Shown one piece after another: positions 37,668-55,794 of a stretch of 64,000 nucleotides of DNA; the stretch's first letter is position 1; each line of letters starts with the position of its first letter. The position numbers and the translations under genes are program-made. Source of the DNA: Metallosphaera sedula DSM 5348 (lineage in GTDB: Archaea > Thermoproteota > Thermoprotei_A > Sulfolobales > Sulfolobaceae); contig NC_009440.1 in NCBI RefSeq assembly GCF_000016605.1, positions 62,001-126,000 of the forward strand, in the 5' to 3' direction. The notes beneath the pieces were generated by a model, which had not been told where the DNA came from, did not search any database, and was given only the letters and a program-made list of their open reading frames with translations.

Positions 37668-37678
37668 AATTCAAGAAA

Positions 37679-37766
37679 TGCCGCCGCGGGGACTTGAACC
37701 CCGGACAACCCGGTCTCTATACCGAAGTCTTCAGCCGGGTGCTCTCCCGGGCTGAGCTACGGCGGC
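37679..37766 (-). tRNA. tRNA-Phe (GAA) with intron
   Basis: Full cloverleaf: acceptor stem GCCGCCG/CGGCGGC with discriminator A, D-arm GCTC/GAGC, anticodon stem CCCGG/CCGGG, T-arm CGGGG-TTCAAGT-CCCCG. The anticodon loop is CTGAAG plus A split by a 14-base intron placed after position 37. No CCA is encoded. TTTTAAG on the minus strand (37792-37799 region) lies about 26-33 bases upstream and may be the promoter. Confidence 0.95.
37715..37728 (-). other. Intron of tRNA-Phe
   Basis: Fourteen bases between positions 37 and 38 of the tRNA, the canonical archaeal site cut by the splicing endonuclease at a bulge-helix-bulge. The boundaries are set by restoring a 7-base anticodon loop; they could shift by a base. 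Confidence 0.75.
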
Positions 37767-37813
37767 ACGAAACTACTTCTACTAGCCTAAACTTAAAACT
37801 TTTGTCCCGCATG

Positions 37814-37897
37814 GTTCAATGGGGCCCGGCGACACCCGAGGAGTACCCTTATTAGGGTGTCTGTGAATTAGGGTCTCCAGGGGCCCCGACATTGAAC
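37814..37897 (+). ncRNA. Highly structured RNA element with possible pseudoknot, upstream of and reaching into the start of the next gene
   Basis: Outer stem GTTCAAT (37814-37820) pairs with ATTGAAC (37891-37897); GGGGCCC (37821-37827) pairs with GGGCCCC (37881-37887), leaving GAC as a 3-base bulge. Inside, GACACCC (37831-37837) can pair with GGGTGTC (37855-37861), and GGAGtACCC (37840-37848) with GGGTCTCC (37871-37878); these two cross, as in an H-type pseudoknot. ACCC-TTATTA-GGGT (37845-37858) is a competing hairpin. The outer stem covers the TTG start at 37892. ACTTAAAA at 37791-37798 could drive transcription from about the 5' base of the stem. It matches no tRNA, SRP or RNase P RNA known to me. 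Either a free RNA or a riboswitch-like leader. Confidence 0.55.
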
Positions 37898-38293
37898 GTC
37901 TTGTTGGTAAGTGCCAATAGGATTGACAGGATGTTTCTGGATGCATTCAGGGAAAGTTTAGAAAAAAACGGAATTAAATCCTACACTATGATTGAAATAA
38001 TTCATGTTAGCCTTACGGCCTATGACTGGGACAAGGGTATATTTGACGGAACCAAGGTAATTGAAAAGATAAAATCTAAGATACCGAGGATGCCGAGTAC
38101 GCTGGTTATTAGTATATTCTCACCTGAAGTGGAATATAATGGCACTTACCCCGAGTGTATGGTTAGGGAAAACCTAGTGTTATTCTCCATTGGAAATCTA
38201 ATGAGAAGGGGCACGATAAAGGATCCAGTTAGTTACATCAGGGATAACATAAGTAGATTTATTCGAGCCGAGAATTGTATAACCTTAAACTAG
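37892..38293 (+). CDS. Uncharacterised protein, start codon embedded in an RNA stem
   Basis: 133 residues from TTG 37892. Mixed alpha/beta character, no cysteine cluster or P-loop, no signal peptide. Segments such as LLVSANRIDRMFLDAF and PSTLVISIFSPEVEYNG are not known to me. A start at ATG 37931 is possible and would put the stem wholly in the leader. The strong structure immediately upstream suggests regulated expression. No neighbour gives a functional hint. Confidence 0.6.
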   Translation: MNVLLVSANRIDRMFLDAFRESLEKNGIKSYTMIEIIHVSLTAYDWDKGIFDGTKVIEKIKSKIPRMPSTLVISIFSPEVEYNGTYPECMVRENLVLFSIGNLMRRGTIKDPVSYIRDNISRFIRAENCITLN

Positions 38294-55456: not shown

Positions 55457-55554
<98 letters not shown>

Positions 55555-55598: not shown

Positions 55599-55794
55599 CT
55601 TTCCTGGGGATGTCAGGATCCAAAAACACCCATACTACCGATATAGCAAAGCCCCGGCATATTTTATAGCTGGTTTCCTCACAATGCATAATCAGTGATG
55701 AGAAGAGGGTCGTATGATTAGTGATTAGCGCTGGAAATTCTGAAACCTTTTCTCCCATAACAGCTTTTAGTGAGGGGTTTAATGTTATCTTCAC

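Follow-up and report, generated by a model that had tools for sequence, protein, structure and literature searches.

The window, a stretch of 64,000 nucleotides from Metallosphaera sedula DSM 5348, very probably contains on its forward strand (37820–37891) the gene of a single-hairpin, stand-alone box H/ACA guide sRNA, whose expression and RNP assembly are predicted. H/ACA guide RNAs direct an enzyme to a uridine in another RNA, which is thereby turned into pseudouridine. The element is no start-codon-trapping switch, such as the initial annotation of this region had proposed. H/ACA guides as a kind are well known; the Sulfolobaceae member is not in Rfam. It is assigned to this class because of its pocket strands, its kink-turn, its ACA box, and the 10 layers and 14-nt spacing that occur in all 30 family sequences.

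Structure and class of the RNA

The region 37814–37897 folds at −41.0 kcal/mol (z = −3.07), and 1 of 200 shuffled sequences was equally good. Covariation was tested on a 30-sequence alignment (A2). The lower stem (8 pairs) and the upper stem (5 pairs) were jointly paired in 93.2% of the cells, with two-sided changes at 7 pairs. Their covariation score was 0.333 versus 0.184 after shuffling, none of 500 shuffles was as high, and the covariation was lost once the partners were slid by one column. RNAalifold found the same two stems unaided, together with an apical helix. Fold and stem covariation thus bear out the initial proposal of a genuine structured RNA. The inner 7-bp helix of that proposal is its best supported part, and was extended to 8 bp, of which 5 pairs have changed on both sides. 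In L077/L078, the upper stem reads ACUCUGU:ACAGAGU.

All the pairings proposed initially are present letter for letter in the window, but only part of them survives in the 30 relatives. The outer helix (GTTCAAT at 37814–37820 with ATTGAAC at 37891–37897) stacks on GGGGCCC/GGGCCCC with a GAC bulge between them, and was thought to bury a TTG start. Its 7 pairs are complete only in M. sedula (0–5 of 7 in the other 29 sequences), and the TTG at 37892, directly behind the ACA box, lies in no conserved helix. Of the two crossing helices, GACACCC:GGGTGTC scored 0.092 for covariation in the 30 relatives versus a shuffled mean of 0.083; it is broken in many species, with the third pair failing in 17 of 26 distinct rows. 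The other, GGAGtACCC:GGGTCTCC, was paired in 79.8% of the cells versus 79.9% after shuffling, with no covariation. Neither exceeds its shuffles, and the pseudoknot is not conserved. Compensatory changes, whose absence from relatives had been named beforehand as evidence against the proposal, are missing from the crossing helices and present in the inner stem. The conserved unit is shorter than first described: it begins at the base of the inner helix and ends with the ACA at 37889–37891.

This unit is 72 nt long in M. sedula and matches the covariance model of the family (R1) with an E value of 1.6e-18. A structural classification from 2015 gives as rules for productive folds of archaeal H/ACA RNAs a GA stem of 10 layers and 14–15 nt from the GA stem to the ACA (PMC4652768). 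Counted on the 3' strand, GA plus 8 nt makes 10 layers in 30/30 sequences of A2; some 5' strands are 1 nt shorter, thus not all the layers are Watson-Crick pairs. The spacing from GA stem to ACA is 14 nt in 30/30, within the published rule. Consistently, the 8-pair lower stem closes below the pseudouridylation pocket, and the kink-turn sits atop the GA stem, with GA facing UGA in nearly all 30 sequences, both being features of H/ACA membership. The box below the lower stem is ACA in 29/30 and UCA in one, and the pocket strands GGCGAC and CUCCAG are invariant throughout the 30 Sulfolobaceae sequences (Table 1).

Table 1. Parts of the H/ACA locus, by window position.
Feature	Position	Strand	Evidence
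TATA-like promoter element CTTAAAA	37792–37798	+	similar A/T-rich box in relatives
Predicted core of the H/ACA guide sRNA, from lower stem through ACA box	37820–37891	+	R1 covariance model, one match per genome
Lower stem, 5' strand TGGGGCCC	37820–37827	+	two-sided changes at 5/8 pairs; pairing in 91.8% of cells
5' guide strand of pocket, GGCGAC	37828–37833	+	invariant in 30/30; core GCGAC also in four weak homologues (other families)
Upper (GA) stem, 5' strand	37834–37838	+	compensatory C-G to U-A, U-A to C-G and A-U
Kink-turn GA, non-bulged strand (probable)	37841–37842	+	GAG kept in nearly all sequences
Apical hairpin and 3' bulge bases, variable in length and sequence	37844–37863	+	alignment A2; RNAalifold helix
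Kink-turn UGA, bulged strand	37864–37866	+	29/30 (UGG in L072)
Upper (GA) stem, 3' strand, 8 nt (10 layers when GA is counted)	37867–37874	+	8 nt from GA to pocket in 30/30
3' guide strand of pocket, CUCCAG	37875–37880	+	invariant in 30/30; complementary to 16S UUGGAG
Lower stem, 3' strand GGGCCCCG	37881–37888	+	covaries with 37820–37827
ACA box	37889–37891	+	ACA 29/30, UCA 1; 14 nt below GA stem
Neighbouring gene outside the RNA, short, archaemetzincin-like, without HEXXH zinc site	37892–38293	+	synteny with Peptidase_M54 genes

For the RNA, a search of Rfam 15 gave no family at gathering score and nothing above chance level at E up to 10, which agrees with the initial remark that no matching family was known. 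Two matches at the relaxed threshold, LOOT and CRISPR-DR16, were rejected as chance level. The H/ACA families of Rfam are per-sequence, and the missing match bears on novelty, not on class membership. In a study of S. acidocaldarius, two H/ACA sRNAs are counted in the small-RNA set and one among the L7Ae-enriched RNAs (PMC5539422); the RNA described here may be one of the two.

Distribution, promoter and neighbouring genes

In the initial DNA search of 60 relatives, the element was found in 24 genomes, all belonging to one family. The R1 model was built from 22 sequences and run on 31 Sulfolobaceae genomes. One copy per genome was present in 30 of the 31, including 28/28 near-complete genomes and 11/11 genera; the sole genome with no match is 71% complete. 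The most divergent family member, L079 (G011) 1501–1569 (−), has UCA in place of ACA and an entirely rewritten upper stem (CCCACU:AGUGGG), and both its guide strands are unchanged. Four weaker R1 matches (E 5e-4 to 0.0096) came from two further families of this order: L080 1495–1558 (−), L081 1380–1443 (+), L082 1402–1466 (+) and L083 1244–1313 (−). They retain GCGAC, the kink-turn UGA and CUC(C/U); their lower stem is shortened or different, and the standard ACA is missing. They are probably distant homologues of the guide RNA, and are reminiscent of H/ACA-like RNAs.

The TATA-like box noted initially upstream of the element has an A/T-rich counterpart in almost every relative examined, at a distance of about 22–33 nt from the stem. 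At the usual archaeal spacing from TATA box to start, the transcript would begin roughly with the first nucleotide of the stem. As the RNA would then start where the inner stem begins, most of the outer-helix 5' strand is probably untranscribed. Beyond the promoter, on the other side, lies a divergent tRNA-Phe gene. In the window, ARAGORN reads 37678–37767 (−) as tRNA-Leu(AAG), where the syntenic gene of the relatives is tRNA-Phe(GAA); it is probably an intron-containing tRNA-Phe that the program misread. At 55457–55554 (−), an Rfam tRNA match missed by ARAGORN is probably another intron-containing tRNA. The known C/D box sRNA sR20 (RF01140) lies at 55691–55745 (+), so that the window holds both classes of guide RNA.

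The gene downstream of the RNA encodes an archaemetzincin (Peptidase_M54, E 5.5e-50 in L053) or, in M. sedula, a degenerate relative that lacks the zinc site, and a Pfam search with the product of 37892–38293 gave no match. The HEXXH zinc site is kept in several genera (e.g. L053, L073, L075) and lost in the genus of the window and in others (g2, g3, g5, g9), the metalloprotease apparently decaying with its N-terminal half retained. In genera g4, g10 and g7, the archaemetzincin-like gene is not beside the RNA, and the RNA persists there. The absence of the adjoining gene from several genera indicates that the RNA is autonomous.

In many genomes, the first possible start codon of the archaemetzincin-like gene lies 0–4 nt 3' of the ACA box, and a ribosome-binding sequence of the GGTGA type sometimes separates the two. 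A riboswitch or RNA thermometer, in which alternative crossing helices in the leader of the 37892 gene hide the TTG start, would fit this abutment, and would also fit the unusually stable fold and the fact that every pairing is possible in the M. sedula sequence. However, the alignment contradicts it, since the crossing helices do not covary, the outer helix is intact only in M. sedula, and no conserved alternative pairings that hide a start codon were found there. The absence of the gene beside the RNA in g4, g10 and g7 also leaves no conserved link to a controlled downstream gene, and an RNA starting at the inner-stem foot would mostly lack the outer 5' strand. The switch proposed initially is thus improbable in the extreme.

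L7Ae regulates its own mRNA in S. acidocaldarius (PMC5539422), and a kink-turn leader bound by this protein might likewise regulate the archaemetzincin-like gene, without the RNA being a modification guide. The conserved kink-turn sequence, the adjacency of the gene in most genomes and the occasional GGTGA-type sequence after the ACA box are consistent with such a leader. It leaves the invariance of the pocket strands, the ACA box and the 14-nt spacing unexplained, however, and the RNA persists in genera with the gene elsewhere, which makes a regulatory leader of this type very unlikely. Given how close the start codon lies to the ACA box, the hairpin might also serve both as a free guide sRNA and as the 5' leader of the archaemetzincin-like mRNA, which we regard as rather improbable. 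If this dual use were true, formation of the pseudouridylation RNP would shut off translation or repress it, coupling ribosome modification to a protease-like gene.

Candidate targets in ribosomal RNA

To place the target of the H/ACA guide, the 16S and 23S rRNAs of relatives were scanned for uridines with a complement of CUCCAG upstream and of GGCGAC downstream. The uridine of helix 31 in 16S rRNA, UUGGAG-U-C-AACGCC (E. coli position 966), ranked first among all the uridines of the 16S–23S region in G007 and G012. In S. solfataricus, the uridine at the tip of this helix is m1acp3Psi930 (PMC11698992). It is the most likely target found; we put it forward tentatively, because the 5' duplex fits the published rules and the 3' duplex does so only in part.

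The 5' duplex consists of five Watson-Crick pairs and one terminal G-U pair (6/6) with −6.3 kcal/mol. Published requirements are no mismatch and a cut-off of −6.0 kcal/mol (PMC4652768); our value, calculated with a different program, barely passes it. The 3' duplex is formed by GGCG:CGCC only, four G-C pairs that follow two mismatches adjoining the PsiN pair. A mismatch beside this pair counts as an anomaly, and the strength of the 3' duplex is not decisive (PMC4652768). In G013 and G015, the 3' side of the site reads CACC with the guide unchanged, and the pairing is weaker. Among shuffled guides, 4.2% scored equally well somewhere in the rRNA. The best site being a known pseudouridine adds weight that is not strictly quantifiable, since the site had been noticed before the scan. 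From helix 31 to the dimethyl-A of helix 45 there are 542–543 nt here versus 545 in the S. solfataricus numbering, which is taken as species indels because only one U occurs in the helix-31 loop. In the searchable part of the M. sedula genome, no perfect bipartite target CUGGAGUNGUCGCC was found, and near matches did not exceed the reversed-pattern control.

The same RNA could instead have its main target in 23S rRNA, at UAACAGGG-U-C-GUCGCG, which we take to be the position of E. coli Psi2457. Here GCGAC:GUCGC forms a perfect 5-bp 3' duplex right after PsiN (−7.9 kcal/mol), and GUCGC is present in 5/5 operons read. In G047, from another family, the pairing of the guide CGCGAC extends over 6 bp, with three Watson-Crick pairs (CUC:GAG) on the 5' side. 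However, the 5' duplex at the site consists of C-G, U-G and C-G followed by mismatches, at −2.2 kcal/mol, and fails the published rule, which allows no mismatch and asks for −6 kcal/mol (PMC4652768); a 5-nt match is moreover expected about once by chance among rRNA uridines, by our estimate. The 23S site is thus unlikely to be the main target. Another candidate, 16S GGAG-UACG-GUCGC (around E. coli 891), was rejected because GUCGC is changed to GCCGC in G007, G013, G015 and G047, and because four unpaired target bases would be required.

Transcription from the TATA-like box would begin near the foot of the hairpin; L7Ae would bind the kink-turn and Cbf5-Nop10-Gar1 both pocket and ACA box, as expected from the class. 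GGCGAC and CUCCAG would act as a bipartite guide that places the target uridine in the active site of Cbf5. With helix 31 as the target, the guide would make the pseudouridine that Nep1 then methylates and Tsr3 aminocarboxypropylates.

Relation to known guides and significance

The comparison class is that of the archaeal single-hairpin H/ACA RNAs, the Pyrococcus Pab series (RF00058, RF00060, RF00064 and RF00065; '10/5/9' and '10/6/9' folds, PMC4652768). The Sulfolobaceae RNA shares with them the lower stem, the bipartite pocket, the 10-layer GA stem, the kink-turn and the ACA 14 nt below. Unlike the Pab series, it has no Rfam sequence match, consists of one hairpin, carries Sulfolobaceae-specific guides, and its pocket reads 6/8 instead of 5/9. 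The crenarchaeal H/ACA-like guides sR201–sR210 of Pyrobaculum have shortened lower stems similar to those of the weak homologues in other families, whereas in the Sulfolobaceae RNA the lower stem is complete and the ACA box standard.

Sso1 is of the same class and from the same order of hosts. As summarised in PMC4652768, Muller et al. (2009) describe it as the Sulfolobus H/ACA sRNA for Psi35 of pre-tRNA-Tyr, predicted in Metallosphaera sedula too. CUCCAG would put a U opposite the universal tRNA U33 next to that site; on this reasoning, Psi35 was rejected as a target, and the present RNA is not the Psi35 guide as described.

In eukaryotes, the P-site nucleotide of 18S rRNA that would be equivalent to the target proposed here, m1acp3Psi of helix 31, is served by the H/ACA guides snR35 (yeast) and SNORA13 (human). 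Both are two-hairpin RNAs of unrelated sequence.

To our knowledge, few H/ACA guides have been assigned in the Sulfolobales. A single-copy, family-wide guide with invariant strands probably serves an important site. The RNA is a new family for Rfam, and its identity explains the puzzling structured region upstream of the archaemetzincin gene. The later steps of m1acp3Psi930 formation, by Nep1 and Tsr3, are known. If the helix-31 assignment holds, the guide would supply the missing first step for this P-site nucleotide, in parallel to the snR35/SNORA13 pathway of eukaryotes.
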